64,000 nucleotides of DNA from Myxococcales bacterium (GCA_012517325.1 JAAYVF010000085.1:1-64000); one strand, 5' to 3'; shown: positions 350 through 45,919, numbered from the stretch's first letter. The notes: generated from the letters alone by a model not told the origin. Translations and numbers: made by a program.

Positions 350-376
350 CCGAAACGATTCGGAAGAGGGTTCGGC

Positions 377-7215: not shown

Positions 7216-7229
7216 CGGCCCTCCTCGCG

Positions 7230-8645
7230 TCAGGTCGTGCCGACCTCGTGAACGTGAATCAGGTTGGTCGTTCCCGGTTTGTTGAACGGCAACCCGGCGA
7301 CGACGATGATGCGGTCGCCCGGCGCGGCGAATCCGCCCTCGATCAGCAGCCGGTCGGCCAGGCCGAAAATTTCGTCGGTGCGGGCGAGCGCCGGCGCCTG
7401 CCGGGGGATGCAGCCGAAATACAGCGCGCCCAGCCGGCTGATTTTTTCGCAGGAGGTCAGGGCGATGACCGGCACCGGCGGCCGCCGCTTGGCCAGCAGG
7501 CGCGCCGTCGAGCCGCTGTGGGTATAGGCGACGATCGCCCGCGGCTGCAGCGCCTCGGTCATGGCCAGCACGCCGTTGATGACCGCTTCGGCCACGCCGG
7601 GCAGGCCGGCGTCGCCGGCCGGCGCCGTTTGCAGCGCGGCCAGCGGTTCGGTTTCCTGGGCGATCGCGGTCATCATCCGCACCGTTTCCAGCGGATAGCG
7701 GCCGGCCGCGGTCTCGCCCGAGAGCATGACGACGTCGGCGCCGTCGAGAATGGCGTTGGCGACGTCGGAGGCCTCGGCGCGCGTCGGGATGGGCGAGGTG
7801 GTCATCGATTCGAGCATCTGCGTCGCCACGATGGCCGGTTTGCGCAGCCGCCGCGCCGCCGCGAGAATCCGCTTTTGCAGCGCGGGCACCTTGGCGACGC
7901 CCACCTCGACGCCCAGGTCGCCGCGCGCCACCATCACGGCGTCGGCGGCCTCCAGCACGCTTTCGAGATCGGTCAGCGCCTCGGGGCGTTCGAGCTTGAC
8001 GATGATCGGCAGTTGCGCCTGGTGCGCCAGCAAAAAGTCGCGCAGGGTCTTCACGTCGCCGGCCGAGCGCACGAACGACAGCGCGATGAAGTCGCAGCCC
8101 AGCCGCACGGCGCCCAGCGCGTCGCGGTAATCGTGTTCGGTCAGCGTCGGCATGTGCAGCGGCACGCCGGGCAGGTTGACGCCCTTGCGGTCCGACAGCG
8201 GTCCGCCGCGCACGACGCGGCAGCGCACATCGCCCTGCCGGATTTCCTCGACGCGCAGATGCAGGTAGCCGTCGGCCAGAAAGATGTCGCCGCCGGGACA
8301 CACCGCGTCGGCCAACTCGGGATAATCGACGGTCAGGCGGTGACCGGAGCAGGGGCCGTCGCCGGCGGCCAGCACGATTTCGTCGCCGTCGTCGAGTTGG
8401 ACCGGACCGTCCGGAAAGCGGCCGAGACGGATTTTCGGGCCCTGCAGATCGGCGACCACGGCCAGCGGGCGCCCGATGGCCCGTTCGGCGGCGCGCACGG
8501 CTTCGACGCGCGGCCGTTGCGCGGTTTCGTCGCCGTGCGAAAAATTGATGCGGGCGGCGTCCATGCCCGCGCGGGCCAGTTCCTCGATCATGCCGGGCCG
8601 GTCGGTCGCCGGGCCCAGGGTGCAGAGGATTTTCACGAACCTCAT
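7230..8645 (-). CDS. pyk: Pyruvate kinase
   Basis: 471 residues, the normal length. It converts phosphoenolpyruvate and ADP to pyruvate and ATP in glycolysis. The ATG at 8645 has GGAG eight bases upstream; a longer upstream frame lacks a start signal. Family motifs are present: KILCTLGPATDRPGM at the N-terminus, INFSHGDET, VVADLQGPKIRLG, IIVKLERPEAL with the catalytic Lys, VARGDLGVEV, and PAIVATQMLESM with the Glu/Ser/Met signature. The C-terminal third forms the alpha/beta regulatory domain (AIVAYTHSGSTARLL). It is divergent from lolA and followed closely by the Fe-S protein gene. Confidence 0.97.
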   Translation of the reverse strand: MRFVKILCTLGPATDRPGMIEELARAGMDAARINFSHGDETAQRPRVEAVRAAERAIGRPLAVVADLQGPKIRLGRFPDGPVQLDDGDEIVLAAGDGPCSGHRLTVDYPELADAVCPGGDIFLADGYLHLRVEEIRQGDVRCRVVRGGPLSDRKGVNLPGVPLHMPTLTEHDYRDALGAVRLGCDFIALSFVRSAGDVKTLRDFLLAHQAQLPIIVKLERPEALTDLESVLEAADAVMVARGDLGVEVGVAKVPALQKRILAAARRLRKPAIVATQMLESMTTSPIPTRAEASDVANAILDGADVVMLSGETAAGRYPLETVRMMTAIAQETEPLAALQTAPAGDAGLPGVAEAVINGVLAMTEALQPRAIVAYTHSGSTARLLAKRRPPVPVIALTSCEKISRLGALYFGCIPRQAPALARTDEIFGLADRLLIEGGFAAPGDRIIVVAGLPFNKPGTTNLIHVHEVGTT

Positions 8646-8768
8646 CGTTCTCGCTCCTTTTTCTGCCGTGAAGGTAGGCTGTCTCGCCGGCGGGCGATTG
8701 TCAACCAAGCACCGTGACCGGCGGCGCGCTTTTTGTTACAGTGAGCCGTTTTCGTAAGGAGATCCTGA

Positions 8769-9425
8769 ATGCGAAAAATGTTCCCGTGGACGATCTTGTT
8801 GCTGCTGGCGGCCCTGCTCGCGCCGGCCGCCGCCGACCCGCTGACCGATCTGATCGGCGGCATCCAGGCCCGCTACGGTAAGGCCAAGGACCTGACGGTC
8901 GATTTCGTGCAGACCACCGTCGTCAAGCAACTGGGCAACCGCGAAAAGCGCGCCGACGGCGTCATCTACCTGGCGCGGCCCGACAAGATGCGGTGGGTCT
9001 ACAAGACCGCGCCGGCCAAGGAAATCATCACCGACGGCACGAGCCTGGTGATTCTCTACGTCGAGGAAAAGAAGGCGTACCTCAGCAAGAGCCAGGGCGG
9101 TTACAACATCGCGCTGCCGATGTCGATCCTCTCGGGCGAGGTGGACGTGAAAACCCAGTACACGCCCGAACTGCTGCCGGACGAGGGCGGCAAGGCGCGT
9201 TTGAAGCTGACGCCGAAGAAGCCGCTCGGCTTCAACTACCTGGTGCTGCACATCAACCGGCAGGGCTTCCTGGTCGAGCGCATCGACACGGTCGACGCGT
9301 ACGGCAACCTCAACAAGATCGAACTGAAGAATCCGCGCTTCAATACCGGCCTGTCCACCGGCCTGTTCTCGTACGCGCCCAAGCCCGGCATTGAAATCAT
9401 CGACGCCCCGATGATGGACCTGTAA
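8769..9425 (+). CDS. lolA: Outer-membrane lipoprotein carrier protein LolA
   Basis: 218 residues with a signal peptide (about 1-22, LLLLAALLAPAAA). LolA shuttles lipoproteins released by LolCDE across the periplasm to the outer membrane. Typical features are YGKAKDLTVDFVQT, DGVIYLARPDKMRWVYK, ITDGTSLVILYV, and a C-terminal strand region with LVLHINRQGFLVERIDTVD. The ATG is preceded by AAGGAG. Its presence fits the ten or so lipoproteins in this window. The following acyl-CoA synthetase gene starts 24 bp downstream and is probably co-transcribed. Confidence 0.93.
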   Translation: MRKMFPWTILLLLAALLAPAAADPLTDLIGGIQARYGKAKDLTVDFVQTTVVKQLGNREKRADGVIYLARPDKMRWVYKTAPAKEIITDGTSLVILYVEEKKAYLSKSQGGYNIALPMSILSGEVDVKTQYTPELLPDEGGKARLKLTPKKPLGFNYLVLHINRQGFLVERIDTVDAYGNLNKIELKNPRFNTGLSTGLFSYAPKPGIEIIDAPMMDL

Positions 9426-9449
9426 GCGCTTCGCAAAGGAGTCCGCACC

Positions 9450-10841
9450 TTGCCGGAATCGGATCTGCGCCCGTTGTTCGATCCCGCCCGCGTCATTTTC
9501 GTCGGCGCTTCGGAAACCAACCTGTTTTCCGCCGGCATCGCCCGCTACCTGATCGGCCACGGCTACGCCGACCGGCTGACGATGGTCCGGCCCGGCGCGG
9601 GAACCGTCTTCGGCCGCCCGGCCTATCCGACCGTCGCCGCCGCCGCGGCCGCCGGGCCGTTCGACCTGGCGATCGTCGCCATCCCGGCGCCGGCCGTGGG
9701 CGAGGCGCTGGCCGAACTCGGCCGCATCGCTTGCCGGCTGGCGATCGTCGAAAGCGCGGGCTTCGCCGAGAGCGGGCCCGAGGGCGCGGCGCGGCAGGCC
9801 GGCCTCAAGGAGCTGATTCGATCCGCCGGGATCCGGGTGCTCGGTCCCAACTGCGTCGGCGTGGTCAACACCGCCAACGGTTTCGCGTCCACCGAGGTGC
9901 AGCCCGAGAGCCTGGTTCCGGGCGGGGTGGCGCTGATCGCCCAGAGCGGCATCTTCGGCTCGATTCTGCTCGATGCGGCTCCGGCGCGCGGGCTGCGGTT
10001 GTCCAAGGCGATCACCATGGGCAACCGGCTGGACCTGGACGAAGCCGACTTTTTGAATTTCCTCGCCGACGATCCGGAGACGCGCGTGGTGGCGATGTAC
10101 CTCGAAGGCGTGGCGGACGGGCCGCGCTTTTTGCGGGCGATGGAGCGTTGCACGGCGCGCAAACCCGTGTTCGTACTCAAGGGCGGGCGGACGGCGGCGG
10201 GCGCCAAGGCGATCGGCAGCCACACCGCCAGCCTGGCGGGCCGCGACGCGGTTTTTTCCGGCGCCTTGCGGCAGGCGGGCGGCCGGCGGGTCGAAAACCT
10301 GGAGGAACTGCTGGACGCGGCGCTGGCCTGTTCGCTTTGCCCCGCGCCGGCCGGCCCGCGCGTCGGCCTGGTCACCACTTCCGGTTCGCAAGGCATTCTC
10401 GCGGCGGACGTGCTGACCTCGCGCGGCCTGCAACTGGCCGAACTCGACCCGGCGACGCTGGCCGCGTTGCGCGCCAAGGTGCCGCCGTGGGTGCCGTTGG
10501 GCAACCCGCTGGATTTCGGCCCGTCGGGATTGTTCGCCGAGGGAGTCGCGGCGCAACTGGCCGATCCGAACGTCGACGCGCTGCTGCTGCTGGTGACGAT
10601 TCCGTGGGGTTCGATCCGGCCGGCGGTCGAGGCGGGAATGCCGATGTCGGCCCTATTGGGCGAGCCGGAAATGCTGCGCGCGGCGGCGCGGCGCAAACCG
10701 ATTCTTGTCTCGCATCTGGGTTTTCCGCCGTTTCTGTCCCGGATGCGCGCGGCGTTCGGCGATTTTCTGCCGATTTATCCCGATTCCGAGCGCGCCGCGC
10801 GGGCGTTGTCGTATTTGGCGGGGTTCAGAAAATCATCGTGA
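9450..10841 (+). CDS. ADP-forming acyl-CoA synthetase, alpha-type (CoA-binding) protein
   Basis: 463 residues from a TTG start with AAGGAG eight bases upstream. Residues ~1-130 form a Rossmann-like CoA-binding domain (ARVIFVGASE, VLGPNCVGVVN). The next two flavodoxin-like succinyl-CoA-ligase domains carry ALIAQSGIFGSIL, KAITMGNRLDLDEADFL and SHTASLAGRDAVF, where the His is the phospho-histidine of the family, then VGLVTTSGSQGILAAD. Enzymes of this family make acetate (or another acid) and ATP from acyl-CoA, ADP and phosphate. The ATP-grasp beta portion is missing here and no beta gene is adjacent, so a partner must be elsewhere or the protein acts in another way. The 3' end overlaps the converging barrel gene by 17 bp. 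Confidence 0.85.
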   Translation: MPESDLRPLFDPARVIFVGASETNLFSAGIARYLIGHGYADRLTMVRPGAGTVFGRPAYPTVAAAAAAGPFDLAIVAIPAPAVGEALAELGRIACRLAIVESAGFAESGPEGAARQAGLKELIRSAGIRVLGPNCVGVVNTANGFASTEVQPESLVPGGVALIAQSGIFGSILLDAAPARGLRLSKAITMGNRLDLDEADFLNFLADDPETRVVAMYLEGVADGPRFLRAMERCTARKPVFVLKGGRTAAGAKAIGSHTASLAGRDAVFSGALRQAGGRRVENLEELLDAALACSLCPAPAGPRVGLVTTSGSQGILAADVLTSRGLQLAELDPATLAALRAKVPPWVPLGNPLDFGPSGLFAEGVAAQLADPNVDALLLLVTIPWGSIRPAVEAGMPMSALLGEPEMLRAAARRKPILVSHLGFPPFLSRMRAAFGDFLPIYPDSERAARALSYLAGFRKSS

Positions 10842-11430
10842 GCCGCAGGCCGCCGGCGAAGTAGCCGTAGGCGCCCGCTTCCTGATCACGATCCTGTTGG
10901 TTGCTGTATTCGAGGTTCGATTTCAGGTAGCCGGCCTTGCCGAAAAGGCCCACCGTGAACGCATCGGCGATCACAAAATCGACGCCGAGGCCGCCGAGGC
11001 CGCCGAAGGCGTGGGCGTCGTTTTGATCCTTCAGGGTTTTCCGGGGGCCTTCCCATTCCGACTTGTAGCGCAGGAAGGACGCCGCGCCCTGCAGGGTGAG
11101 GTAGGGGATCACGTAGCGGGTGTTCCAATTGAAACGCGGGCCGATGCCGCCGATGAAATGCGAGGTGGAGATTTCGCCGGTTTCGTCCTTATCGGCCTGT
11201 TCGTGAAGGCTGTAGAGCGTATCGGCCTCGATGGCGAGCCAGTCGATCACGCCGTAGGCCAGGGTGACGCCGTACGCGATATCGCCGCCGAGCATTTGGC
11301 CCAGTTCGCCGTTCATCGCGGCAAAACCCACCTCGGGGGCGATGATCATGTCGCCTTCCTGCACCGCCCAGGCGGCGGCGCCGGCCGCCAGCACCAGTAG
11401 ACACGCCAAGCCGATCGCATATCCGCGCAT
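10825..11430 (-). CDS. Outer-membrane beta-barrel protein 1
   Basis: 201 residues with a signal peptide (residues ~1-22, LACLLVLAAGAAAWA). The mature protein alternates short amphipathic strands and polar turns, such as GVTLAYGVIDWLAIEADTLY and GGIGPRFNWNTRYVIPYLTL. It ends in LRLTMIF, with the terminal Phe that BAM recognises in barrel proteins. Length and strand count suit an 8-stranded OmpA/OmpW-type barrel. It is the last gene of a three-gene minus-strand run of such proteins. Specific cargo or role unknown. Confidence 0.75.
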   Translation of the reverse strand: MRGYAIGLACLLVLAAGAAAWAVQEGDMIIAPEVGFAAMNGELGQMLGGDIAYGVTLAYGVIDWLAIEADTLYSLHEQADKDETGEISTSHFIGGIGPRFNWNTRYVIPYLTLQGAASFLRYKSEWEGPRKTLKDQNDAHAFGGLGGLGVDFVIADAFTVGLFGKAGYLKSNLEYSNQQDRDQEAGAYGYFAGGLRLTMIF

Positions 11431-11431
11431 T

Positions 11432-12067
11432 TTACCACCGCAGGTTGAGCCGCAGGGTCACGCTGACGCCGTTCATCGCGGCGTCGACGATGTCCTTTTG
11501 GAAAATATAGTAATAGCGGACGCGCAGGCCCAGATCGAGCCGTTCGAGCGCCGCCTGACCCGTTTCCCAGATCGTGTAGTCCGCGCCGGCGCCGAGGTTG
11601 ATGGTGAAATCGACCTCGTCCTTTTTCTTGCCTTCAATGGGTTGAAAGATCAGGTACGTGGCGCCCAGGCCGCCCGAGATGTACGGATGCAGCCGCCGGC
11701 CCTCGAAAACGTAGCCGGGATTGAAAGCGGCGTGGTGCATAGCGATGTCGAACAGGGTGGAGTCGTCGCCGTCGGTGACTTTTTCCTTTTCGTCGTCCCA
11801 ACTGAAGGCCTCGCCGCGCGCGGCGCAATAGATGTAATTGATTTCGCCGACCATGTTGCGCGCCCAGTTGAAATCGAACAGTTGAAACAGGGTGCCGCCG
11901 AACGCCGGCGCCGGGTCGATGTCGATGTGGCTGGCGTGGCGATCGTAGGCGAAGAGCCAGAGATAGCCGCCTTCCGCCGCCGTGTTCATTTTAAAGTCTT
12001 TCGCCTGGGCGACCGCCGTGAAGAAGAGCAGCGTCCACAAGCATAGCGCGGCGATTCGATGTCCCAA
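11432..12067 (-). CDS. Outer-membrane beta-barrel protein 2
   Basis: 211 residues from a TTG at 12067; GAGGTG lies eight bases upstream on the minus strand, and the signal sequence (HRIAALCLWTLLFFTAVAQA) begins directly after. The longer open frame would place the signal sequence internally, so it was rejected. Strands such as FTINLGAGADYTIWETG and LDLGLRVRYYYIF alternate in barrel fashion and the protein ends in LRLNLRW, again an aromatic terminus for BAM. It is one base from the next barrel gene and 17 bp downstream of the third, so they form an operon. Confidence 0.72.
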   Translation of the reverse strand: MGHRIAALCLWTLLFFTAVAQAKDFKMNTAAEGGYLWLFAYDRHASHIDIDPAPAFGGTLFQLFDFNWARNMVGEINYIYCAARGEAFSWDDEKEKVTDGDDSTLFDIAMHHAAFNPGYVFEGRRLHPYISGGLGATYLIFQPIEGKKKDEVDFTINLGAGADYTIWETGQAALERLDLGLRVRYYYIFQKDIVDAAMNGVSVTLRLNLRW

Positions 12068-12084
12068 TTCCTTGTCACCTCGGT

Positions 12085-12639
12085 TCAAAAAGTGAAGGCC
12101 AGCGTAAACAAGCCGCTGAACATTGTAGCGGAATCGAAATGATCGGCAAACAGGTAGGAATAGCGGCCGACGGCTCCGAACGAGACGTGGTCGGTCAATA
12201 CCGCTTCCAGCCCGATGCCGCCGATCAGGCCCGGATCGCTTTCGTCCTCGAGCGGAGGGTCCAGGCTGATGATGTAGTAGTTGGCGCCCAGCAGCATGTA
12301 GGGCTGGATCAGGTCGGTCAGGACGTTCCAGCGGAAGCAGGTGACGATTTCCTGGGCGGTCATGGTGTTGTCGTGGTTGCGGTCGGTGCGCACGCGCATT
12401 TCGCTCGACAACAGGCCGAATTGAATGCCGGCGTGATCGGTGATGCCGTAGTTGAGCAGGGCGCCGGTGAGCAGGGCGGTCGGCGTGTCGAAACGGCTGG
12501 TGCGCTGGTGTTCCATCTGCGGCCACAACGCGCCGACGTTACCCAGAATGCTGACGCGGCCGCCGCGCTGCGCCCGGGCCGGCAGCGGGGGCAACAGCAG
12601 CAGCAACACCAGAAAAAAAAGCCATCGCCGGGCGCGCAT
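12085..12639 (-). CDS. Outer-membrane beta-barrel protein 3
   Basis: 184 residues; the ATG at 12639 is preceded by AAGGTGG. Signal peptide at residues ~1-23 (LFFLVLLLLLPPLPARA). Barrel-like strands include FDTPTALLTGALLNYGITD and MLLGANYYIISLDP, and the end is FTLAFTF with the aromatic BAM signal. It heads the three-gene barrel operon. A loop (DRNHDNTMTAQE) resembles a small acidic calcium-binding-like turn but is too short to call. Function unknown. Confidence 0.72.
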   Translation of the reverse strand: MRARRWLFFLVLLLLLPPLPARAQRGGRVSILGNVGALWPQMEHQRTSRFDTPTALLTGALLNYGITDHAGIQFGLLSSEMRVRTDRNHDNTMTAQEIVTCFRWNVLTDLIQPYMLLGANYYIISLDPPLEDESDPGLIGGIGLEAVLTDHVSFGAVGRYSYLFADHFDSATMFSGLFTLAFTF

Positions 12640-12723
12640 TCCACCACCTTGAACGGTTTGTCGGCCGCAGGAAACTTATTCACCCTAATACCCCTTGGCG
12701 CCGCGCCTCGTCAACCGGCGGGC

Positions 12724-12753
12724 TTGTCGCGAGCGCCGCCGGACGGCTATCAT
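12724..12753 (+). promoter_or_regulatory. Probable sigma-70 promoter of the YhaM-like gene
   Basis: -35 TTGTCG (12724-12729), 18-base spacer, -10 TATCAT (12748-12753). Transcription would start about 17 bases ahead of the ATG at 12777, leaving a short leader with AAAGGGG as ribosome site. Confidence 0.4.
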
Positions 12754-12776
12754 GGCCGGGCTAAAGGGGTCGCCAG

Positions 12777-13823
12777 ATGAAACATTTATGGCTGGAAACG
12801 ATCGGCGAAGGCTCGCCGGTCGAGGGAACCTACTATCTCCGCGCGAAAAGCACCGGCACCACCAAGGCGGGTAAGCCCTACCTCTCGCTGGTTTTCAGCG
12901 ACGGCAGCGGCGAGATGGAAGGCCGCCTGTGGGACAACGCCCTCGATTATGAGGGTCGCGCGGCGGCGGGCGATTTCGTCTTCATCCGCGCCCGCGGCAA
13001 AATCTGGCAGAGCCAGGTGCAACTCGATGTTTCGCACCTGGAAACGGTGCCGCGCGAATCGGTGAACGTCGATTATTTCCTGCCGGCCTGTCCGCGCGAC
13101 CGCGAAGCCTACGCGCGCACGGTGAACGAACTGATCGACGGCCTTGCGGACGAATCGCTGCGCCGCCTCTGCCGGGCGCTGCTGGACGATCCCGAACTCG
13201 GCCCGCGCCTGAAAGCGGCCCCGGCCGCCACCGGCGTGCACCAGGCCTACGTCGGCGGCCTGCTGGAGCATGTCTGCTCGATGATGCTGCTGGCCGACAA
13301 GATTTGCACCCACTACCCGGCGCTCGACCGCGACCTGTTGCTGACCGGCGTGCTCTTTCACGACCTGGGCAAGATCCGCGAAATGGCCTACGAGTACGCT
13401 TTCGATTACACCGACGCCGGCAAGCTGGTCGGCCATCAGGTGTTTGGCGTGCAGTACCTCGACCGCCTGGCGGCCGAACTCGGCGACTTTCCGCCCGAGC
13501 GGCTGATGCTGCTGGAACACCTCATCCTCTCGCACCACGGGCGGCCCGAGTACGGCGCGACCAAAATTCCGATGTTCGCCGAGGCCCTCGTGCTGCACTA
13601 CATCGACAACCTCGACGCCAAGGTCTTCGGCTTTCTGGAGGCGGAGGCCGAATCGGGGCAGGGCAACTGGTCCGAGCGCAAGTGGTATCTGGAGACGGCG
13701 GCCTACAAAGTGCCACGCGAAACGCCGGGCTATTCGTTCCGCCTGCCCGGCGCGAAGCCGGCGGGCAAGGCCGAACGCGCCAAGGGCGGCGAGACGAACG
13801 AACTGCCGCTCTTCAAAAAGTGA
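12777..13823 (+). CDS. OB-fold/HD-domain hydrolase, YhaM-like 3'-5' exoribonuclease
   Basis: 348 residues. The first ~95 residues form an OB-fold nucleic-acid-binding domain (KSTGTTKAGKPYLSLVFSDG, FIRARGKIWQSQVQLDV). The HD phosphohydrolase domain follows, with metal ligands in VGGLLEHVCSM, GVLFHDLGKIREM (the HD pair) and LILSHHGRPEYG. This domain order is that of the YhaM/CBF1 family of 3'-5' exonucleases that trim RNA or single-stranded DNA. The C-terminus is Lys-rich and ends LPLFKK. It is followed 3 bp later by a HAD phosphatase gene. Confidence 0.85.
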   Translation: MKHLWLETIGEGSPVEGTYYLRAKSTGTTKAGKPYLSLVFSDGSGEMEGRLWDNALDYEGRAAAGDFVFIRARGKIWQSQVQLDVSHLETVPRESVNVDYFLPACPRDREAYARTVNELIDGLADESLRRLCRALLDDPELGPRLKAAPAATGVHQAYVGGLLEHVCSMMLLADKICTHYPALDRDLLLTGVLFHDLGKIREMAYEYAFDYTDAGKLVGHQVFGVQYLDRLAAELGDFPPERLMLLEHLILSHHGRPEYGATKIPMFAEALVLHYIDNLDAKVFGFLEAEAESGQGNWSERKWYLETAAYKVPRETPGYSFRLPGAKPAGKAERAKGGETNELPLFKK

Positions 13824-13826
13824 GCC

Positions 13827-14528
13827 ATGCGCGCGGCGGTTTTCGACGTCGATCGGACCTTGCTGGACGGGATGAGCGGCTTTCTCTTCGCCCGCCACCT
13901 TTGGCGGACCGGCGCGCTGCCCTGGCGCGGGCGCTGGCGTTCGGCGAAAGCGATGGTGCTTTACCGGCTGGGCCTGGCCGGACCGGAAATCATCATTGCG
14001 GCCGGGGCGACCTGCTGCGCGGGACTGACGGCGGCGCGGACCGAAGAGTTGGCGGACGCGGCGGTGGCGGCGACGATGCGCGGGCGATTTTACCGTGAGG
14101 CGCTGGCGGCCGTCGCGGCCCATCGTGAACGGGGCGACCGGGTGCTGCTCGCTTCGGGTTCCAACGTCTTCGTGGCGCGGGCGATCGCCCGCGCGGCCGG
14201 CGCCGAGGACGCCGTGGGCACCGATTGCCTGCGGTCGGACGGCCGGTTGCTGGCGACGATGGCCGGGCCGGCCTGCTACGCGGAAGGCAAACGCGAACTG
14301 GTTTCGCGCTGGCTGGCCGAACGCGGCCTGACGCCGGCCGAAACGATCGTCTATACCGACAACGGCATCGATCGGCCGTTGCTCGAGGTGGCCGGCGAGG
14401 TCGTGGCGGTGAACCCGGACGCCGACCTGGCGCGGTTGGCGGCGGCGCGGGGCTGGCGCACGGAGCGCTGGGAGACGCCGGTCGATCCGCGCTACCGGCG
14501 CACGGGTACCAGTTGGCCGTTGCGCTAG
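13827..14528 (+). CDS. HAD-superfamily (subfamily IB, PSP-like) phosphatase
   Basis: 233 residues. Motif I is FDVDRTLLDG (nucleophile Asp then Asp+2), motif II is LLASGSN, and the distal acidic motif is VYTDNGIDRPLLE, slightly altered from the usual GDSxxD. The helical cap between residues ~15 and 90 fits HAD-IB enzymes such as phosphoserine-phosphatase-like proteins. The likely reaction is hydrolysis of a small phosphomonoester in the cytoplasm; the substrate is not visible. It lies 3 bp after the YhaM-like gene with only a weak ribosome site, so it is probably translationally coupled. Confidence 0.85.
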   Translation: MRAAVFDVDRTLLDGMSGFLFARHLWRTGALPWRGRWRSAKAMVLYRLGLAGPEIIIAAGATCCAGLTAARTEELADAAVAATMRGRFYREALAAVAAHRERGDRVLLASGSNVFVARAIARAAGAEDAVGTDCLRSDGRLLATMAGPACYAEGKRELVSRWLAERGLTPAETIVYTDNGIDRPLLEVAGEVVAVNPDADLARLAAARGWRTERWETPVDPRYRRTGTSWPLR

Positions 14529-14557
14529 CGTCAGGCGCCCGACGGGCGAAAAGCGTC

Positions 14558-14586
14558 TTGCCTCTCGCCTCGCCTGTCTCTACAAT
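14558..14586 (+). promoter_or_regulatory. Sigma-70-like promoter of the PAS-receiver gene
   Basis: -35 TTGCCT (14558-14563), 17-base spacer, -10 TACAAT (14581-14586). It lies 30 bases ahead of the ATG at 14617, which has AAGGGGA as ribosome site. Confidence 0.5.
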
Positions 14587-14616
14587 CGAAGGATATTTCA
14601 GTAAACAAGGGGAACC

Positions 14617-15705
14617 ATGAAGAGCAGGCGCGTATTATGGGCGGCAATTCTGATCGTCCTCCTGGCCGCGATTCATGTCGGCTTTTACCAATACATCACC
14701 CACCACATCACTCTGCTGGCCTGGGATGAAGAGGCGAACGTCGATCGCGCGTTGCGCCTGCGCCTGGGGCTGCAAGCGCCGGTGCTCTTCGACCTGGGGG
14801 TGATCGGCATCCTGCTGATCGCGGTGGTGCAACTGACCAACCGGGCGCGCGAAGCGCAAAAACTGCGCGATCACAATGCCATGCTGCGCAAGGCCCTGGA
14901 AAAGGAACGCTCCCTCAGCGGCCCCGAAAGCCGCGTCCAGGCCATTTTCGACCAGGTTCCCGCCGCGCTGGTGCTGTTCGACGCCGAGGGCCACCTGCTC
15001 ATGGCCAACCCCAAGGCGATCAACCTGCTCAACCTCGACGACCGGCTGATCGGCGACATCAAGTTCGCCGACCTGCTGCCGCCCCAGGCCATCATCCGCT
15101 TCGCCGATCTGTCCCGGGCGCTGGCCGAGCGCGGGCCGCAGTCGATCCGCATCTCGCTGAACCAGAACAAGGGCATCGACTTCGAGGCGCGGTTGCGGAT
15201 GGCGTCGTTCGTCAACCAGAAAAACGGCGAAAACCTGGTCGTCGGCACCGTCGAGCCGATCGAGGAACCCGAACCGGAAGACGCGCCGGAAATGGCCGAT
15301 CGCCCAGCGGTGCTGGTCGCCGACGACGAGGAACTGCTGCGCATCCTGATGAAAAACATGCTGATCCAGATGGGCTACCGGCCGCTGCTGGCCCGCGACG
15401 GCCAGGAAGCGGTGGAACTGTTCACCGCCCACCGGAAGCACATCGCCGCCGTCATTCTCGACATGGTCATGCCGCGCCTGGACGGTCCGGAAGCCGCCGA
15501 GCGGATTCGCGCCCTGGCGCCGGCCATGCCGATACGCTATTGCAGCGGCCTGACGCAACTGCCCAGCCACGCGCCCGAGGATCAGCGCGACCGGCTGGTG
15601 CGCAAGCCGTTCAGCATCGAGGATTTCAAGATCGCCCTGCAAACCGTTCTGGAAGAGCGCCCGGAGGGCGCCGCGCCCGCCGATGATACCGCGCCCAAAC
15701 AATAG
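14617..15705 (+). CDS. Membrane-anchored PAS domain-receiver protein without kinase domain
   Basis: 362 residues. Two transmembrane helices (about 6-27 and 54-73) flank a short ~25-residue loop. A short coiled-coil (75-100) leads to a PAS domain (about 105-215; IFDQVPAALVLFDAEGHLLM). A complete receiver domain follows (230-345) with Asp236/Asp237, phospho-acceptor Asp282 in VILDMVMPRLDG, Ser310 and Lys330 in RKPF. There is no HisKA/HATPase between PAS and receiver, so a separate kinase must phosphorylate it, or the PAS signal is read differently. The 3' end overlaps the following lipoprotein gene by 23 bp. Confidence 0.85.
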   Translation: MKSRRVLWAAILIVLLAAIHVGFYQYITHHITLLAWDEEANVDRALRLRLGLQAPVLFDLGVIGILLIAVVQLTNRAREAQKLRDHNAMLRKALEKERSLSGPESRVQAIFDQVPAALVLFDAEGHLLMANPKAINLLNLDDRLIGDIKFADLLPPQAIIRFADLSRALAERGPQSIRISLNQNKGIDFEARLRMASFVNQKNGENLVVGTVEPIEEPEPEDAPEMADRPAVLVADDEELLRILMKNMLIQMGYRPLLARDGQEAVELFTAHRKHIAAVILDMVMPRLDGPEAAERIRALAPAMPIRYCSGLTQLPSHAPEDQRDRLVRKPFSIEDFKIALQTVLEERPEGAAPADDTAPKQ

Positions 15706-16216
15706 ACGCCGCCCGGCGCCGTGGCTGCTGGGCCTTTGCCTGCTGCTGGCGTTGGCCTGCTCGTCGTTGAAACGCGAGGTGCGCGACGAATACGCGCCAT
15801 GGCGCGAGGTGCGCGAGGGCGGCCTCGAATGGCGCGCGCCGGAACGCTTCGTCCGCAAGGATCTGGCCTCGTTCGTTCTGTATCAGCCGGCAAGCGAGAG
15901 CCCGGCTTTGCCGTTCGTCGGCGTCGGCAACCTGGACCGGCTGCCGGCGGGCCAATCGGCCGCCGACCTGCTGCAAAGCTTCCGCCCGCGCCGCCCTGAC
16001 GAAGCGGCGCGCAATCAACCGGCCGAAGCGACCGTCGCCGGCCGTCCGGCGCGCGGTTACGAATCCGCGGACGCGCAGATGCACGGTTGGACGTTCGTCA
16101 TCGAGGAAGCCGGCAAACCGCGCGCGGTGCTGTTGATCGGCGTGCCGGCCTACTGGTCGAGCGAACGGGCCGGCGCCTTCCGCGACGTGATCCTCGCTTC
16201 CGTCCGACTGCTCTGA
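15683..16216 (+). CDS. Lipoprotein of unknown function
   Basis: 177 residues; the Arg/Pro-rich start is followed by a hydrophobic stretch and the lipobox LALAC (Cys at about residue 26). The mature part has a compact alpha/beta pattern (LASFVLYQPASE, GWTFVIEEAGKPRAVLLIGV) and ends near the last strand/helix (RDVILASVRLL). Ser at +2 after the Cys suggests outer-membrane targeting by the E. coli rule. It overlaps the upstream PAS-receiver gene and is followed 8 bp later by another secreted protein gene. No family recognised. Confidence 0.65.
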   Translation: MIPRPNNRRRPAPWLLGLCLLLALACSSLKREVRDEYAPWREVREGGLEWRAPERFVRKDLASFVLYQPASESPALPFVGVGNLDRLPAGQSAADLLQSFRPRRPDEAARNQPAEATVAGRPARGYESADAQMHGWTFVIEEAGKPRAVLLIGVPAYWSSERAGAFRDVILASVRLL

Positions 16217-38324: not shown

Positions 38325-39776
38325 ATGAAGTTATCGACAAGGTTAATGGCGCTCTTTGCCTTCGTTCTCGCCATGTGGTTCATCGCCGGTTGCGATGAAG
38401 CCGAGGACGCGGCCGAAGACGCTCTGGAGGAAGCGACGGGTTACGAGTGGATTCTGAATGAAGACGACTTTGCCGATGAAACCGGTGTGTCTACCCCGGA
38501 AGACTGGCAATTCCTCTTCGCGGTGAATTTGAAAGACGCCGAGACGGCGCAGTTGATCGATCAGGATTTCGAAGTCGATCTGAGCGTGCTCGAGGATCTG
38601 GGCCTGGGCTTCGGCGACATCGAATCGCAGGTCATCATGGCGCACGCGACCGCGACGCCCGCCGGCGATCCGGGCCTGCGTTACGCCAACAAGATTCTCT
38701 TCCAGGACGGTAAGGTAATGCTCGACGGCGAAAGCATCGAGAAACTCGGCGCCAGCGTCGGTTCCTCGGGCGCCGGTTGGTACGTGGCGTACCTGTCCCT
38801 CGAAGCCGTCGGCTTCGTGAAGGGCACCGTGACCGATTGCGACGGCAATCCGCCCGCCGCCGACAACATCCTGGTTCTGGCCTCCGATGGTCCGTTCTTC
38901 ACCTTCGCCGCCGATGACGGCACCTGGGCCGTGCCCAGCCGCAACGGCAAGCCGGCCGCCGTCAACTTCGACGCCGGCGACTGCGCGGGCTCCAGCGAAG
39001 CCCCGATCACCGATCCGGCCGACGATCCCAATGAAAAAGATCCCGGCACCGAACCCGAAGACGATCCGCTCGAAGACGAGACCAACGTGATCGACGACGG
39101 CGAAACCGACCTGGGCGGCGACGACGGCGTCAATCCGCCTCCGGCCGGCGGCGGCGACAACTTCGATTTCGAAACCGGCACCACCGACGGTTGGTACTTC
39201 GCGGGTCCGGAAGGCTGCTTCGGCGTGTACAACGGCAATTACAGCGACCTGTTCCCGGGCGGCAGCGAGCAGTATTACGGCTTCATCACCTCCGGCGGCA
39301 GCGACAATCCGTCCTGCACGGTGACGCGGACCTTCACGGTTCCGGCCGGCGCGACCAAGTTCGTGGTTTCCTACAACTTCATTTCGCAGGAATACGAGGA
39401 GTGGATCAACTCCGCGTACAACGACATCTTCACCGTCATCATCCAGGGCGAGACGGGCTACGTCATCCATCGCACGATCAACGACGTGGCCTTCGAAGGC
39501 GCCTGGACCGATCTGGGCCTGGCGATCGGCAACATCGACAGCAGCGCCGACGCCACCTACAACCCGACCGGCGCGATCTTCGACGGTCAGTTGAATTGGG
39601 GCGGCAGCGATGCCAGCACGCCGCGCGGCCCGGGTGACACCCAGAGCAGCGCGGGCCGCGTGGCCGAATACCCGGTCACCGCGGGCGCGACGATCACCGT
39701 GTTGATCACCGTGAGCGACGTGGCCGACCGGATCTACGACTCGGCCGCGACCATCGATTACGTGGCGTTCGAATAG
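38325..39776 (+). CDS. Large acidic lipoprotein with C-terminal choice-of-anchor-like beta domain
   Basis: 483 residues; signal and lipobox FIAGC, then an acidic DEAEDAAEDALEEA stretch. With Asp at +2 the E. coli rule would keep it in the inner membrane, but lineages differ. A middle region (about 165-205) looks like a carboxypeptidase-regulatory-type beta-sandwich (VKGTVTDCDGNPPAADN), followed by a Pro/Asp/Glu linker. The C-terminal ~190 residues are all-beta, with FVVSYNFISQEYEEW and YNDIFTVIIQGETG, resembling anchor-type surface domains. It has a strong promoter and terminator, so it is probably an abundant surface protein. Function unknown. Confidence 0.75.
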   Translation: MKLSTRLMALFAFVLAMWFIAGCDEAEDAAEDALEEATGYEWILNEDDFADETGVSTPEDWQFLFAVNLKDAETAQLIDQDFEVDLSVLEDLGLGFGDIESQVIMAHATATPAGDPGLRYANKILFQDGKVMLDGESIEKLGASVGSSGAGWYVAYLSLEAVGFVKGTVTDCDGNPPAADNILVLASDGPFFTFAADDGTWAVPSRNGKPAAVNFDAGDCAGSSEAPITDPADDPNEKDPGTEPEDDPLEDETNVIDDGETDLGGDDGVNPPPAGGGDNFDFETGTTDGWYFAGPEGCFGVYNGNYSDLFPGGSEQYYGFITSGGSDNPSCTVTRTFTVPAGATKFVVSYNFISQEYEEWINSAYNDIFTVIIQGETGYVIHRTINDVAFEGAWTDLGLAIGNIDSSADATYNPTGAIFDGQLNWGGSDASTPRGPGDTQSSAGRVAEYPVTAGATITVLITVSDVADRIYDSAATIDYVAFE

Positions 39777-39887: not shown

Positions 39888-40682
39888 TCAGAGCAAATCG
39901 GCGAATTCGCGGGAGAGGCGGCGGAACAAGAGCAAGCCGAAGAGGAACACCAGCAGCGAGAACACGCCCAGGTAGAAAACGGTCCACAGGTGCGGGACTT
40001 CGTTGCTGAGCAGCGCCGCCCGATACGCGCTGATCAACGGGGTCAGCGGGTTGATGTAGAACAGAAGCTTCAGTTGATCGGGAATCAGCCGCAGCGGATA
40101 GATGATCGGCGTGGCGAAGAACCAGAGCGTCAGCACCGCCGAGATGACCTGGCCGACGTCCTTGTAAAACACGTGCAGCGAGGAGGCGATCAGGCTCAAC
40201 CCGAGGGTGAAAACCAATTGCAGCGGAAAAATGAAGAGCAATCCGAGGGCCCAAAAGTAGGGCGGTTCGCCGACGATCACCAGAATGACGATGAAGATGG
40301 CCAGGGCGATCAGTTCGTGCAAAAAGCTGGAAAGCAGCACGTGCATCGGCAAAAGGATGGTCGGAAAACGGACCTGTTTGACCAGATCCTTGTTTTCGAG
40401 AATCACCGTGCCCGATTTTTGCACCGCCTCGGAAAAGGCGATCCAGGGCAGCATGCCGGCGAACAGGAAAACGCCGTAGTTGGCGGTGCCGGCGTTGCCG
40501 CCGATGTTGACCTCGAGGATGTAACCGAAAACGAACGTATAAACGAGTATTTGCAGCAGCGGGTTGATGACCGACCAGAAGAAGCCGCCGAAACTGGCGC
40601 CGTAACGCTTGCGCAGATCGAGCATCACCAGGCTCCAGAGCAGCCGGCGGTGCGTGAGCAAATCGGCGAAGATCAGACTCAT
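39888..40682 (-). CDS. ABC-2-type polysaccharide/O-antigen export permease
   Basis: 264 residues; ATG at 40682 (another ATG at 40700 is possible; neither has a good ribosome site). Six hydrophobic helices in the ABC-2 pattern: a cytoplasmic start LLWSLVMLDLRKRYGASFGG, then FFWSVINPLLQILVY and FRRLSREFADLL at the end. This matches Wzm/TagG-like permeases that export lipid-linked polysaccharides with a Wzt/TagH ATPase. No ATPase gene is adjacent on either strand, so the partner is elsewhere. Confidence 0.87.
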   Translation of the reverse strand: MSLIFADLLTHRRLLWSLVMLDLRKRYGASFGGFFWSVINPLLQILVYTFVFGYILEVNIGGNAGTANYGVFLFAGMLPWIAFSEAVQKSGTVILENKDLVKQVRFPTILLPMHVLLSSFLHELIALAIFIVILVIVGEPPYFWALGLLFIFPLQLVFTLGLSLIASSLHVFYKDVGQVISAVLTLWFFATPIIYPLRLIPDQLKLLFYINPLTPLISAYRAALLSNEVPHLWTVFYLGVFSLLVFLFGLLLFRRLSREFADLL

Positions 40683-40869
40683 CGGCGCGGAATATAACAT
40701 AGAAAAAGCGTTTTCGCCCCCTGGTCATTCGCGCGGCGACAGGCGAAAAAATCGCACTTTTTCCGGCGGCGATTGTCTAACCGGATGATTCACCGGGCGG
40801 CATTTGTCTTGAGTACCGGATGGGCTGGTGCTAAGCTTTGCCGACTTCCAAACGGCATTGAAGGTGCGC

Positions 40870-43800
40870 ATGCGTTATGTGCTTACCGGCGGCGGTACGG
40901 GCGGCCATGTTTACCCGAATCTGGCGATCGCCAGCCAACTGGCCGGCCACGATCCCCAGGCGGAATTTCTTTATATCGGCGTGAAGGATCGCGCCGAGGC
41001 CGACATCGTGCCCCGCTACGGCATGCCGATCCGCTTCGTGCCCTCGCGCGGGATGCCGACCAGCAAGTTCTCGCCGGCGATGGTCGTGTTTTTGTTTTCC
41101 CTGCTCGTCGGCACGCTCAAAGCGGCGGCGCTGCTGCTGCGCTTTCGGCCGCGCCTGGTGATCGCCACCGGCGGCTACGTCAGCGCGCCGACGCTGTTGG
41201 CGGCCCGGCTCCTGCGGCGCCCAGTGCTGGTGCACGAGCAAAACGCCTACCCCGGGCTGGTCAACCGCACCTTCGGCCGCATCGCCCAGCGGGTATGCGT
41301 CAGCTTTCCCGAGAGCCTGGCGCACTTCGGCCACAACGGCAAACTCGTCGGCTACCCGGTGCGGCCCGCGATTCTCGCCTTGCGCGAACCGGCGAGCGAG
41401 GAACAGCGGCGCCAATGGAAGCGTGAGTTGGGCGTCGATCCGGATCGCCGCTTGATTTTGATCACCGGCGGCTCGCTGGGCGCGCGGTCGATCAACCGCG
41501 CGGTGGCGGCGCTGCTGCCCGCGCTGGCGGCCGACGCCGAACTGCGCCGGCGCGTTTTCGTGCTGCACGGGGTCGGCCGGTTCGCGGGGCCGGAATACGA
41601 CGCCGCCGCCGACACGGTGGCCCGCCTGAAGGCCGTCGGCTTCGACGAGGATGCGGCGCGCGATTTCTACCGGCGCGAGCGCTATCTGTACGAAATCGAG
41701 AAGTGGCTGCGCGTCGCCGACGTGATCGTCTGCCGGGCGGGCGCGGGATCGCTGGCCGAGACGGCGGCGGTCGGCGCGCCGGCGGTGGTGATTCCCAAGA
41801 GCGGCCTGCCGGGCGACCACCAGGTGAAAAACGCCGAGACCATGGCCGCGGCGGGCGCCTGCCTGGTCATTCAGGAGCACCGGGAGACGGTGGACGGCAA
41901 GCCCGGCGACGCGGTCGACCCCGAGCGCCTGCTGGCCGCGATCCGCGAACTGATCGACCTGAGCCCGGAAGCCCGCGCCGCGATGCAGGCGGCCGCCGCC
42001 CGTTTCGTCGTGCCCGATTGCCTCGAACGGATTCAAAGCGAAGCCGATGCGCTGCTGGCCCCGCCCAAGCCGCAAGCCGAAAAAATCCGCCGCCGCCGCA
42101 CTTACCTGATCGATCCGCAGGGCCGCCGCGCGGATTTGCTGTACGACCGCAACCGCGTCGGGACCGGCCGCTGGGACGACACGCGGTTCGCCGTCCCCGG
42201 CTTGCACCGCCGTCATTTCTGGCTCAAACGCGTCGGTCGGATGGTCGACGGCGCGGTCGAGGAAACCTGGACCGCGATTCCCCGCTCCGCGCTGTCGTTG
42301 CGCCGTGGCGCCGCGGCGCCGGCGCCGCTGGACGGCCCGACGCCGCTGAGTCCCGGCGATCGCCTGGTGCTGCCGGGCGGCGCGGAACTCGAATTCAACG
42401 GTGAATGGATCGAGGTTTCGCGCGAGAGGTCGGAAAAAGGCGTCGTCGAAAATGTGTTTTCGCAGGGCGTCGGCACGTTTTTCGCCAAGGGCCTGGGCTT
42501 TTTCCGCGAGGCATTCCTGGGCCGGTTTTTCGGCGCCGGCAGCATTATGGACGTGTTTGCGGTGGCACTCAGCCTCGCCAACCTGATGCGCGAGGTCGTG
42601 GCGGAAATGGCGCTGGAGAACGCGTTTCTGCCCTCGTTCCTGTTGTTTTATCACCGCAGTGAGGACAAGCGGCCCGCCTGGCGGCTGGCCTGGCAGGTGT
42701 TCAACGTCTTTTTCGTGCTCTCGTCGCTGTTCACGGCCGTGGCGATCGTCACCTGCCCGTGGTGGATTCATTTCGTGGCCCCCGGTTTCGTCGAAAAGGG
42801 ATTGATCGACAAGACCGTCGCCATGACGCGCCTGATGTTCCCGTTCCTGATTCTGATGAGCGTCAGCGCGTTTCTCGGTACGCTCCTGCAGGCCTTCGAC
42901 CGGTTCGGGCCCAACGCGTTTTCGCCGGTGCTCTACAGCCTGGGCTTGCTGTTCATCGTGCCGATTCTCGAACCGCTCTTCGGCCTGTACGCCCTGGGCG
43001 TCGGCGTGCTGGTCGGCGGCGTACTGCAGATCGTCTTTCAGATGTTCTTCCTGCTGCGGCGCGGGCTGCGCGAAAAGATCGCCTGGAACGAATACCGGCC
43101 GCGCCTGGCCAACGAGCCCGGCGTGAAAAAGGTGATGTCGCTGTCGGGGCCGGTTTTCCTCGACGCCATCCTCAACAAGATCAGCGGCGTCGTCGACAAG
43201 ATCCTGGCGACCCCGCTCGTCGCCGGCTCGGTCAGCGCCCTTTATTTCTCGCGCCTGCTGGTGGTGTTTCCCTTCAGCGTGCTGGCGATGAGCGTCAACC
43301 GCGTTTTCTTGCGCGACCTCTCGGGCGTCGCCGCGACCAGCGACAGCCGGCAGTACCGCGACATGTTGCAACAGGGGATCGAGGCCACGTTGCTCCTGAT
43401 GATCCCCACGACCGTCCTGCTGATCGCCCTGGCGACCCCGCTGGTGCGGTTCGTCTTCGAGGGCGGCAAGTTCACGGCGCAGGGCACGGCGATGACCAGC
43501 CTGGCCCTCGTCTGCTATTCGCTGGGCCTGCTCGGTTGGTCGCTGACCTCGCTCTACAGCCGCGTCTTTTCCAGCCAGCTCGACACCCGCACCAGCATGC
43601 TGACCAACGCCGGCAGCGTCGTGGTCTACCTGATTTTCGCGGTAATCCTGGTCCGGACGCCGCTGCGCCACGCCGGCCTCGCCCTGGCCACCAGCCTGGC
43701 GTTTACCTTCAACACGGTCTGGCGGCACGGCATCATCTCGCGGCGGCTGGCCGCCGACGGCTTCCCGCTGGACATGCGCCGCCTCGCGCCGACCTTTGTC

Positions 43801-44802
43801 AAGACGCTGACCGCCAGCCTGGTGATGACCCTGGTGGTGCTGCTGTTCTTCGCCACGCCCAAGGCGGGGGCGGGCTTCTGGCGCAACGCCTGGAGCTTCA
43901 TCGTGCCCTCGACGATGGGCCTGGCGATCTTCGTCGTGTTCGCCTACCTGCTGCGGATCGGCCCGCTCTTGGACATGCTCAACTACTTCGCCGCGCGGCT
44001 GGGCCTGGGCCGGCCGTTCGGCGGCGCGCCGGTGGTCGTCGCCAAGAGCAACGGCAACGTGCGCCTGCTGGCGGCGGGGGCGCTGCTGGCCGAGGCCGAG
44101 CGGCGCGAGTTCGACGCCGAGGAACTGGCCATCGTGCGCCAGCGGCTGGAGAGCTACCTGCACCACGACGACTGGTGGATCCGCAACATCGGCATCAAGC
44201 TCATCGGCGTGCTGAAGCTGACCGACTGCATCGACGTGCTGGTCGACGCGATCGAGGCCAAGGTCGACCGGCGGCCCTGGTATTTGCGGCGGCTGACGGG
44301 ATTCGGCCGCGACGTCGGCTTCGTGCGGCGCAACAGCCTGACGAGCCTGGTCGAGGTCGACCACTTCGACGCGCGCGTGCGGCGGGCCATCCTGGTTTCG
44401 CTCCGCGATCCGTATTACGAGGTGCGCCAGTACGGCCTGCGCGCGCTGCTGGCGTTCGCCAACCCCTTGCGCGGCGACGCCGAAACGCTGGCGGCCGTCG
44501 AAAAATTGCTGTTCGACCGGCATTTCGAGGTCGTTCCGGTGGCCGTGAAGGCCTACGCCGAGCTGGCGACGTCGCCGGGCGCCCACGAAAAACTGTACCC
44601 GCTGCTCGACGATCCGCGCTGGCCGATCCGCACCGCGGCGGTGGACGGTTGCCGGCGGCTGTTCGATCGCGGTCTGGTGCCCGATCCGGCGGCGTTGCGG
44701 CGGGTGCTGTCGCGGACGCTGCTGGCCGGGGAGATGATCGAGCCGATTTCGCCCATCAAGCGGGCCGTCAAGCAGGCGGTTGCCGGACTGCCGGAGGAAT
44801 AA
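40870..44802 (+). CDS. murG-murJ: MurG-FHA-MurJ-HEAT fusion: lipid II synthase joined to lipid II flippase
   Basis: 1310 residues from the ATG with AAGGTG upstream. Residues 1-395 are MurG, which adds GlcNAc to lipid I: GGGTGGHVYPNLAIA at 7-21, HEQNAYPGLVNR at 122-133, TGGSLGARSIN near 199-209, CRAGAGSLAE at 288-297 and DHQVKNA at 316-322. Residues ~408-516 resemble an FHA domain (RVGTGRWDDTRF, LHRRHFWL, LSPGDRLVLPGGAELEF). Residues ~525-1045 are MurJ, the MVF-family flippase with about 14 helices: LGFFREAFLGRFFGAG, with Arg546, Asp561 and Arg574 at the positions of E. coli Arg24, Asp39 and Arg52, and Lys540 for Arg18. Residues ~1060-1310 are HEAT-like helical repeats. One open frame with no internal stop; mraY follows after one base. 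Confidence 0.93.
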   Translation: MRYVLTGGGTGGHVYPNLAIASQLAGHDPQAEFLYIGVKDRAEADIVPRYGMPIRFVPSRGMPTSKFSPAMVVFLFSLLVGTLKAAALLLRFRPRLVIATGGYVSAPTLLAARLLRRPVLVHEQNAYPGLVNRTFGRIAQRVCVSFPESLAHFGHNGKLVGYPVRPAILALREPASEEQRRQWKRELGVDPDRRLILITGGSLGARSINRAVAALLPALAADAELRRRVFVLHGVGRFAGPEYDAAADTVARLKAVGFDEDAARDFYRRERYLYEIEKWLRVADVIVCRAGAGSLAETAAVGAPAVVIPKSGLPGDHQVKNAETMAAAGACLVIQEHRETVDGKPGDAVDPERLLAAIRELIDLSPEARAAMQAAAARFVVPDCLERIQSEADALLAPPKPQAEKIRRRRTYLIDPQGRRADLLYDRNRVGTGRWDDTRFAVPGLHRRHFWLKRVGRMVDGAVEETWTAIPRSALSLRRGAAAPAPLDGPTPLSPGDRLVLPGGAELEFNGEWIEVSRERSEKGVVENVFSQGVGTFFAKGLGFFREAFLGRFFGAGSIMDVFAVALSLANLMREVVAEMALENAFLPSFLLFYHRSEDKRPAWRLAWQVFNVFFVLSSLFTAVAIVTCPWWIHFVAPGFVEKGLIDKTVAMTRLMFPFLILMSVSAFLGTLLQAFDRFGPNAFSPVLYSLGLLFIVPILEPLFGLYALGVGVLVGGVLQIVFQMFFLLRRGLREKIAWNEYRPRLANEPGVKKVMSLSGPVFLDAILNKISGVVDKILATPLVAGSVSALYFSRLLVVFPFSVLAMSVNRVFLRDLSGVAATSDSRQYRDMLQQGIEATLLLMIPTTVLLIALATPLVRFVFEGGKFTAQGTAMTSLALVCYSLGLLGWSLTSLYSRVFSSQLDTRTSMLTNAGSVVVYLIFAVILVRTPLRHAGLALATSLAFTFNTVWRHGIISRRLAADGFPLDMRRLAPTFVKTLTASLVMTLVVLLFFATPKAGAGFWRNAWSFIVPSTMGLAIFVVFAYLLRIGPLLDMLNYFAARLGLGRPFGGAPVVVAKSNGNVRLLAAGALLAEAERREFDAEELAIVRQRLESYLHHDDWWIRNIGIKLIGVLKLTDCIDVLVDAIEAKVDRRPWYLRRLTGFGRDVGFVRRNSLTSLVEVDHFDARVRRAILVSLRDPYYEVRQYGLRALLAFANPLRGDAETLAAVEKLLFDRHFEVVPVAVKAYAELATSPGAHEKLYPLLDDPRWPIRTAAVDGCRRLFDRGLVPDPAALRRVLSRTLLAGEMIEPISPIKRAVKQAVAGLPEE

Positions 44803-44803: not shown

Positions 44804-45919
44804 GTGCTGTACCTATTTTCCCATTGGCAGGCGCTGCACGGCCACGTCACGACGCTGAACCGGCTGCTGGGCTACATCACCTTTCGGGCGGGCGTCGCGG
44901 CGGTGCTCGGCATCCTGCTGACGCTGCTGTTCGGCGGCCGGATGATCCGCTGGCTGCACCGGGCCGGCATTCACGACACGCCCCGCGATTACGGGGTGAT
45001 GAAGGTCAACGACAAGAAGGGCACGCCGCAGATGGGCGGGTTGATCTTTGCCCTGGTCACGCTCGTCGTGGCGCTCCTGACCTGCGACCCGACCAACCGC
45101 TTCGTGCAGATCATGCTGCTGTCGCTGCTGTGGTTTACCTCGATCGGCGCGGCCGACGACTACCTGAAAATCGTCGTGCACCGCAACGCCGACCTCGGCC
45201 TGTCGCGTCTGGAAAAGCTTTTTTTCCAGGGCCTGTTCGGTCTGCTGCTGGCGCTGGTCTGCTATACCCCGAGCCTGTCGCCGCACGAGGCGCACCTGAT
45301 CGGCCGGTTCACCCTGCCGTTCATCAAGGGGACGATCCCGCTGTCGATCCTTTATCTTCCCTTCGTGGTGCTGGTGGTGATCGGCATCAGCAACGCCATC
45401 AACCTCACCGACGGCATGGATGGGCTGGCGACGGTGCCCTCGATTATGACGGCGCTGGTCTACGCGATCTACGCGTACATTCTGTCGCACGCCAAGATCA
45501 GCAGCTACCTGTGGTTCGACCAGGTGAAGGGCGCGGGCGAGGTGGCGGTGTTTCTGGCGGCGCTGTTCGGGGCGCTGGTGGGTTTTCTCTGGTTCAATTC
45601 GTACCCTGCGACGGTGTTCATGGGCGACACGGGCAGCCTGGCGATCGGCGGCATGCTGGCGACGGCGGCGGTGCTGATCAAGCAGGAATTTCTGTTCGTA
45701 CTCGCCGGCTTTTTGTTTTGCGCCGAATTCGTTTCCTCGGCGATCCAGGATCGGCTGGGGGTGAACCGCGGCGGGCTGGGGATGCGCATCTTCGCCCGAG
45801 CACCGTTGCATGACGCCTTCCGCCTGCGCGGCATGGCCGAGCCGAAGGTCGTCGTGCGCCTCTGGATCATCGCGGGCATCGCGGCGATGATCAGCCTCCT
45901 GGCGCTCAAACTGCGGTAA
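44804..45919 (+). CDS. mraY: Phospho-MurNAc-pentapeptide transferase (MraY) with altered HHH motif
   Basis: 371 residues from a GTG with GGAGG six bases upstream. MraY moves phospho-MurNAc-pentapeptide from UDP to undecaprenyl phosphate, making lipid I, the substrate of MurG. Ten helices and the core motifs are present: KKGTPQMGGL (71-80), ADDYLKI (117-123), NAINLTDGMDGLAT (197-210), FMGDTGSLAIGG (272-283) and EPKVVVRLWII. The usual Pro-x-His-His-His-Phe loop is PLHDAF at 334-339, so only the first of three His remains. The start lies one base after the MurG-MurJ fusion stop, and coupling is near certain. It could be a lineage variant or a paralogue. Confidence 0.93.
   Translation: MLYLFSHWQALHGHVTTLNRLLGYITFRAGVAAVLGILLTLLFGGRMIRWLHRAGIHDTPRDYGVMKVNDKKGTPQMGGLIFALVTLVVALLTCDPTNRFVQIMLLSLLWFTSIGAADDYLKIVVHRNADLGLSRLEKLFFQGLFGLLLALVCYTPSLSPHEAHLIGRFTLPFIKGTIPLSILYLPFVVLVVIGISNAINLTDGMDGLATVPSIMTALVYAIYAYILSHAKISSYLWFDQVKGAGEVAVFLAALFGALVGFLWFNSYPATVFMGDTGSLAIGGMLATAAVLIKQEFLFVLAGFLFCAEFVSSAIQDRLGVNRGGLGMRIFARAPLHDAFRLRGMAEPKVVVRLWIIAGIAAMISLLALKLR

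Follow-up and report, generated by a model that had tools for sequence, protein, structure and literature searches.

The window analyzed here, a stretch of 64,000 nucleotides from a Myxococcales bacterium, carries on its plus strand a gene in which a MurG-type glycosyltransferase and a MurJ-type flippase share one reading frame, with mraY starting directly behind it. MurG completes the cell-wall building block lipid II, and MurJ flips lipid II across the membrane. Reading of the sequence gives a single stop-free frame, and the motif GAAGG stands just 5' of its ATG. The features of the locus are the following.

40870-44802, plus strand: MurG-FHA-MurJ-HEAT fusion gene, ATG at 40870, TAA at 44800-44802, 1310 codons
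40870-42060, plus strand: MurG domain of GT28 fold, residues 1-397, active-site residues kept
42067-42438, plus strand: probable FHA-like middle domain, residues about 400-523, from a profile of 26 homologous middle regions
42439-43998, plus strand: MurJ domain, MOP-superfamily flippase, residues about 524-1043
44047-44799, plus strand: HEAT-repeat C-terminal region, residues about 1060-1310, homologous to the MurG-HEAT tails of other phyla
44793-44798, plus strand: Shine-Dalgarno-like GGAGGA of mraY, within the last codons of the fusion
44804-45919, plus strand: mraY, GTG start one base past the fusion stop, TIGR00445 259.7 bits

The divergent neighbor at 39888-40700 (minus strand) encodes an ABC-2 polysaccharide-export permease (PF01061) that is 72-73% identical in G001 and G002, the two other genomes of the family that were examined; an open reading frame at 38325-39776 (plus strand) has a match to a choice-of-anchor L domain (NF038133, 41 bits).

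A preliminary description of this DNA had reported the uninterrupted 1310-codon frame, and its reading of MurG and MurJ in that frame is confirmed by Pfam and NCBIfam matches. The order of MurG, a middle region of about 130 residues, and MurJ also stands, but the fourth region, the HEAT repeats, had been overlooked, and the description included neither the FHA-like identity of the middle region, the mraY partner, and the fusion in reversed order, nor the altered charges in TM8. Because the genome is a draft of 134 contigs, it is conceivable that an assembly or frameshift error joined two genes. However, full-length fusion frames are found in both G001 and G002 (70 and 68% identity), and with the 28 further genomes described below that have collinear intact frames, the fusion is present in more than a single assembly; these orthologues in independent genomes rule out such an error, and the chance that it accounts for the gene is negligible. 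In the three orthologues of the family dN is lower than dS in the MurG, middle, MurJ, and HEAT regions, indicating that all four domains are under purifying selection. The sequences thus indicate that the synthase-flippase fusion is real, conserved, and recurrent.

In the MurG domain, Pfam identifies Glyco_transf_28 at residues 4-143 (E 9.5e-35) and Glyco_tran_28_C at 196-383 (E 1.6e-22), with scores of 120 and 81 bits that exceed the Pfam cut-offs. The preliminary description had placed all MurG landmarks in the frame, and alignment to the E. coli (1f0k) and Pseudomonas (3s2u) enzymes bears this out: the catalytic and UDP-GlcNAc-binding residues His13, Asn125, Arg165, Ser202, Glu297, Gln318, and Asn321 are present, and they are invariant or nearly so in an alignment of 31 rows. 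The domain resembles standard MurG (TIGR01133; PF03033/PF04101; E. coli 1F0K) in its fold, in the GGTGGHVYP and HEQN motifs, and in the nucleotide-binding residues, but it differs in being fused to MurJ, in belonging to a separate HEAT-linked clade, and in its score with the NCBIfam model TIGR01133 (231.9 bits), which is about 18 bits short of the 250.25-bit equivalog cut-off. Because that cut-off is missed, it is named MurG-type, on the basis of its fold, its residues, and its uniqueness in the genome, and is not a curated equivalog. It is predicted to transfer GlcNAc to lipid I.

An AlphaFold2 model of residues 1-1056 was generated with an alignment from which MurJ-only rows, which had aligned onto MurG, were left out; it has a pLDDT of 83.6 and a pTM of 0.63. 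Because of this pTM and of the linker, which is modeled with low confidence, the model serves for the folds of the domains and not for how MurG and MurJ are arranged relative to each other. In Foldseek comparisons its MurG part matches 1f0k with a TM score of 0.82 on the target, and its MurJ part matches the solved MurJ structure 7waw with a TM score of 0.92 on the target.

The MurJ domain, which is predicted to flip lipid II, matches the Pfam MurJ family at residues 552-993 (E 4.3e-83) and scores 283.2 bits with NCBIfam TIGR01695, above the 235.55-bit equivalog cut-off. The preliminary description had called it a complete MurJ-type flippase with the cavity charges. This holds for Arg546, Asp561, and Arg574, which align with Arg24, Asp39, and Arg52 of E. 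coli MurJ (the TM1 and TM2 charges) and are kept in the window's family, but not for TM8, where E. coli Arg270 and Glu273 align with Leu796 and Val799 and an arginine, Arg795, lies beside them. When 47 MurJ domains are aligned, an arginine at the position of residue 796 is kept in all MurJ-first fusions and in nearly all unfused rows, whereas it is absent in 11 of 11 MurG-first rows; the eight MurG-first rows from outside the window's family have an arginine at the position of residue 799 instead, so that in MurG-first fusions the arginine is displaced by one or three residues from the Arg270 position. The segment concerned, residues 795-799, lies at 43252-43266 of the window, and the TM8 arginine is out of register in every MurG-first fusion examined. 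Arg270 of E. coli is presumably equivalent to Arg255 of Thermosipho africanus MurJ. The R255A mutant of the latter is non-functional (PMC6465408). The loss of this arginine from its usual register is therefore the main caution about the flippase half. In summary, relative to MurJ/MviN (TIGR01695; PF03023; 7WAW, 6CC4), the fold, the score, and the equivalents of Arg24, Asp39, and Arg52 are alike, but the fusion adds MurG and the FHA-like domain at the N terminus and HEAT repeats at the C terminus and has Leu and Val at the Arg270 and Glu273 positions.

A profile search of the window's genome gives a single match for Glyco_tran_28_C and four for the MurJ family, the fusion at 284 bits and three others at 54, 37, and 33 bits. 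The latter are Wzx-like or, in the case of L003, a MOP protein of no assigned class that scores below the MurJ cut-off, and redundant copies of MurJ elsewhere were ruled out on these grounds. No separate complete murG or murJ, which the preliminary description had named as an observation that would count against the fusion, was found in the rest of the genome, and the fusion is very likely, as judged from these searches, the host's sole MurG and sole full MurJ. The displaced TM8 arginine, seen across the MurG-first clade, together with the presence of three further MOP-superfamily proteins in the genome, could nevertheless mean that the MurJ domain is no ordinary lipid II flippase, having a regulatory role or another substrate, and that a different MOP protein flips lipid II; the O-antigen flippase Wzk is reported to be able to stand in for MurJ (PMC4990322). 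This is improbable, given that the Arg24, Asp39, and Arg52 charges are kept, that the domain is under purifying selection and scores over the MurJ equivalog cut-off, that the MurJ-first fusions retain the TM8 arginine, and that the alternative proteins are Wzx-like or well below the MurJ cut-off.

The middle region of the window's protein has no Pfam match when searched alone, but a profile of the 26 middle regions searched against the PDB gave six matches, all six of them to FHA domains (Ki-67 twice, Dun1, EmbR, KIF13B, and afadin), with weak E values of 0.012-0.35, and one homologue matches PF16697, the FHA-like YscD domain (E 2.3e-6). An AlphaFold2 model of the domain is beta-rich and of low confidence; FHA domains are among its top Foldseek matches, which, with a weak model, are not significant. 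The residues of the phosphothreonine site (GR, S-R-x-H, and N) are not conserved in the middle-region alignment, and the window's family retains only the RxH. We describe the region as FHA-like, with a probable role in docking. In four MurG-first fusions (L165/L189, L168/L190, L226, and L228) the linker, about 40-60 residues in length, is too short to accommodate it.

The C-terminal region matches PF13646 (HEAT_2) with 39.2 bits (E 8.5e-10) when the tail is searched as a fragment, as compared with a cut-off of 27.7 bits, and with 26.1 bits, just below that cut-off, in the full protein. In other phyla the HEAT tail accompanies MurG; therefore, in the fusion the MurG domain is separated from its customary tail by the FHA-like domain and MurJ. 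The termini of MurJ lie in the cytosol, and the added domains are consequently expected to be cytosolic in both orders of fusion. Mycobacterial MviN, a MurJ with a pseudokinase domain that is bound by FhaA, is similar in having extra cytosolic domains and in the involvement of an FHA domain, but FhaA is a separate protein that binds phosphorylated MviN (PMC12599244, PMC11898655), whereas the FHA-like domain of the fusion is part of the chain and lacks the usual phosphothreonine-binding residues.

The model has low-confidence segments on both sides of the FHA-like domain, and the sequence is compatible with proteolytic cleavage of a precursor to give MurG and MurJ, in which case the fusion would couple expression only. 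This appears quite improbable: a simple operon would achieve the same coupling, the HEAT tail, which is associated with MurG elsewhere, stands beyond MurJ, and inspection by eye reveals no internal start with a ribosome-binding site near the MurJ boundary. The last observation also led to rejection of the idea that MurJ is translated on its own from within the gene.

The pairing of the fusion with mraY is syntenic in G001 and G002, where mraY is 76% identical. In a typical dcw cluster, murF is followed by mraY and then murD, and ftsW is followed by murG and then murC. The dcw cluster of the window's own genome, examined on contig C121 (positions 1-16000), contains rsmH, a class B PBP gene, murE, murF, murD, ftsW, murC, murB, and ddl in otherwise standard order; the rest of the pathway is there, but no murG or mraY was found in it. 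There is no room for either, since a 4-base overlap joins murF to murD and about 12 bases separate the ftsW domain from that of murC. Both genes are located at the window locus instead, which indicates that the dcw mraY and murG are relocated or replaced by it.

A scan of named genomes revealed the MurG-first order also in Candidatus Aminicenantes MAGs (L051-L055), and a search of 142 genomes of the class around L051 yielded further examples. In all, MurG-first frames were examined in 28 Candidatus Aminicenantes-type genomes, at least three of them cut by contig ends (L055, L223, and L227), in addition to the three in the window's family. The reversed order, MurJ-MurG-HEAT, occurs in six genomes (L074, L076, L077, L172, L177, and L229), and the pairing in either order in more than 30 of the genomes examined. 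In both orders, mraY adjoins the 3' end of the fused gene wherever there is enough downstream DNA to score. MurG-HEAT without MurJ is found in Latescibacterota, Gemmatimonadota, Delongbacteria, Fermentibacteria, Myxococcota, and Acidobacteriota MAGs, with mraY on its 3' side in most loci that have enough DNA; a separate MurJ is a direct neighbor in L066 and L056 (MurJ, MurG-HEAT, MraY) and in L200 (MurG-HEAT, MraY, MurJ). The pairs of MurG-HEAT and mraY (L056, L059-L081, L163-L175, and others) span several phyla and are distinct from the standard genes in trees; no description of them was found in the openly available papers searched.

In phylogenetic trees, the HEAT-linked MurGs form one clade (support 98), which includes two members without HEAT in the same frame (L070 and L071), and the MraYs that adjoin HEAT-linked MurG also form one clade (100). 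Two classmates of the window's organism, G003 and G005, fall outside both of these clades; their MurG, MraY, and MurJ are of the standard kind. In the MurJ tree all MurG-first domains form a single clade (100/99), supporting one origin for this order, whereas the MurJ-first domains lie elsewhere among unfused MurJs; in the MurG tree the MurG-first clade is not recovered, yet the tests do not reject it (p-AU 0.2 and 0.23). A constraint that unites every fused MurJ in one clade is rejected both with 47 rows in a careful tree (p-AU 2.5e-35) and with 66 rows in a quick tree (p-AU 6.4e-4). Because the MurJ tree rejects a single clade for both orders, the sequences indicate two or more separate fusions of MurG with MurJ, in opposite orders. 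The same tree led to rejection of a common origin for the two orders, although an identical result would be expected if MurJ had been replaced within one ancestor that was already fused. The MurG-first fusions represent a MurJ lineage in which the TM8 arginine no longer occupies its standard position. The simplest account of these trees, leaving donor and direction aside, is that horizontal transfer brought the module into the window's family, where the standard genes were lost; we read this as the replacement of standard murG, mraY, and murJ by a module for the membrane steps.

The explanation that is very probably correct is that the locus encodes a bifunctional lipid II synthase and flippase, supplied by MraY, in place of the ordinary genes. 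That MurG and MurJ form one chain with both folds, that the genome has no further full copy of either, that the gene is coupled to mraY and conserved, and that the fusion arose twice can be read from the sequences themselves; the two activities, the roles in docking, and a tighter or direct transfer of lipid II are predictions from them. The host would use one membrane protein of 1310 residues for both the synthesis and the flipping of lipid II. MraY, the product of the next gene, would form lipid I, and the MurJ domain, tethered in the same chain as the MurG domain, would collect lipid II in the inner leaflet and flip it. The FHA-like domain and the HEAT tail would face the cytosol, where they most likely provide sites for docking, with MraY or Mur ligases as possible partners, and the whole unit would have taken the place of ordinary murG, mraY, and murJ in the window's family.

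Within this explanation, direct hand-over of lipid II from MurG to MurJ is plausible. An alternative that departs from it only in this last step, and to which slightly less than an even chance is assigned, is that the fusion provides stoichiometry and co-localization only, lipid II passing from MurG into the membrane, where any MurJ would catch it by affinity and the attached one would have no privilege. Evidence from E. coli supports an affinity gradient for the passage of lipid II, the separate MraY, MurG, and MurJ proteins passing lipids down such a gradient in vitro (PMC9046198), and the model of the fusion shows a long linker with little order. However, the same pair has been fused twice in opposite orders and MurJ sometimes adjoins unfused MurG-HEAT, suggesting that proximity itself is selected, although this does not tell proximity from transfer. 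A stronger version of the bifunctional reading, that MraY and the fusion constitute a dedicated assembly line with obligate coupling, evolved at least twice, in which the cavity is rewired for substrate from the attached synthase, is tentative and on balance doubtful.

No published MurG-MurJ fusion was found in the openly available papers searched, in agreement with the preliminary description. The natural Mur fusions listed in PMC6420597, which are MurE-MurF (in Bordetella), MurB-MurC, MurG-MurC, MurC-Ddl, and MraY-MurG, similarly combine two steps of peptidoglycan precursor synthesis in one chain, but none includes a flippase, whereas here synthesis at the cytosolic face is joined to transmembrane transport. 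E. coli data reviewed in PMC10216114 support a recruitment of MurJ that requires the synthesis of lipid II, and the question on which this fusion bears is how lipid II reaches MurJ after its synthesis by MurG and whether these proteins come into contact. A one-to-one natural fusion that arose twice, in opposite orders and linked to mraY, is evolutionary evidence for the proximity of the three steps, and it offers one polypeptide in which the synthesis, transfer, and flipping of lipid II would be measurable together, so that a direct connection of the two processes, synthesis and flipping, becomes testable. If the coupled assembly line were true, MurG and MurJ would be expected to work as neighbors in bacteria generally.
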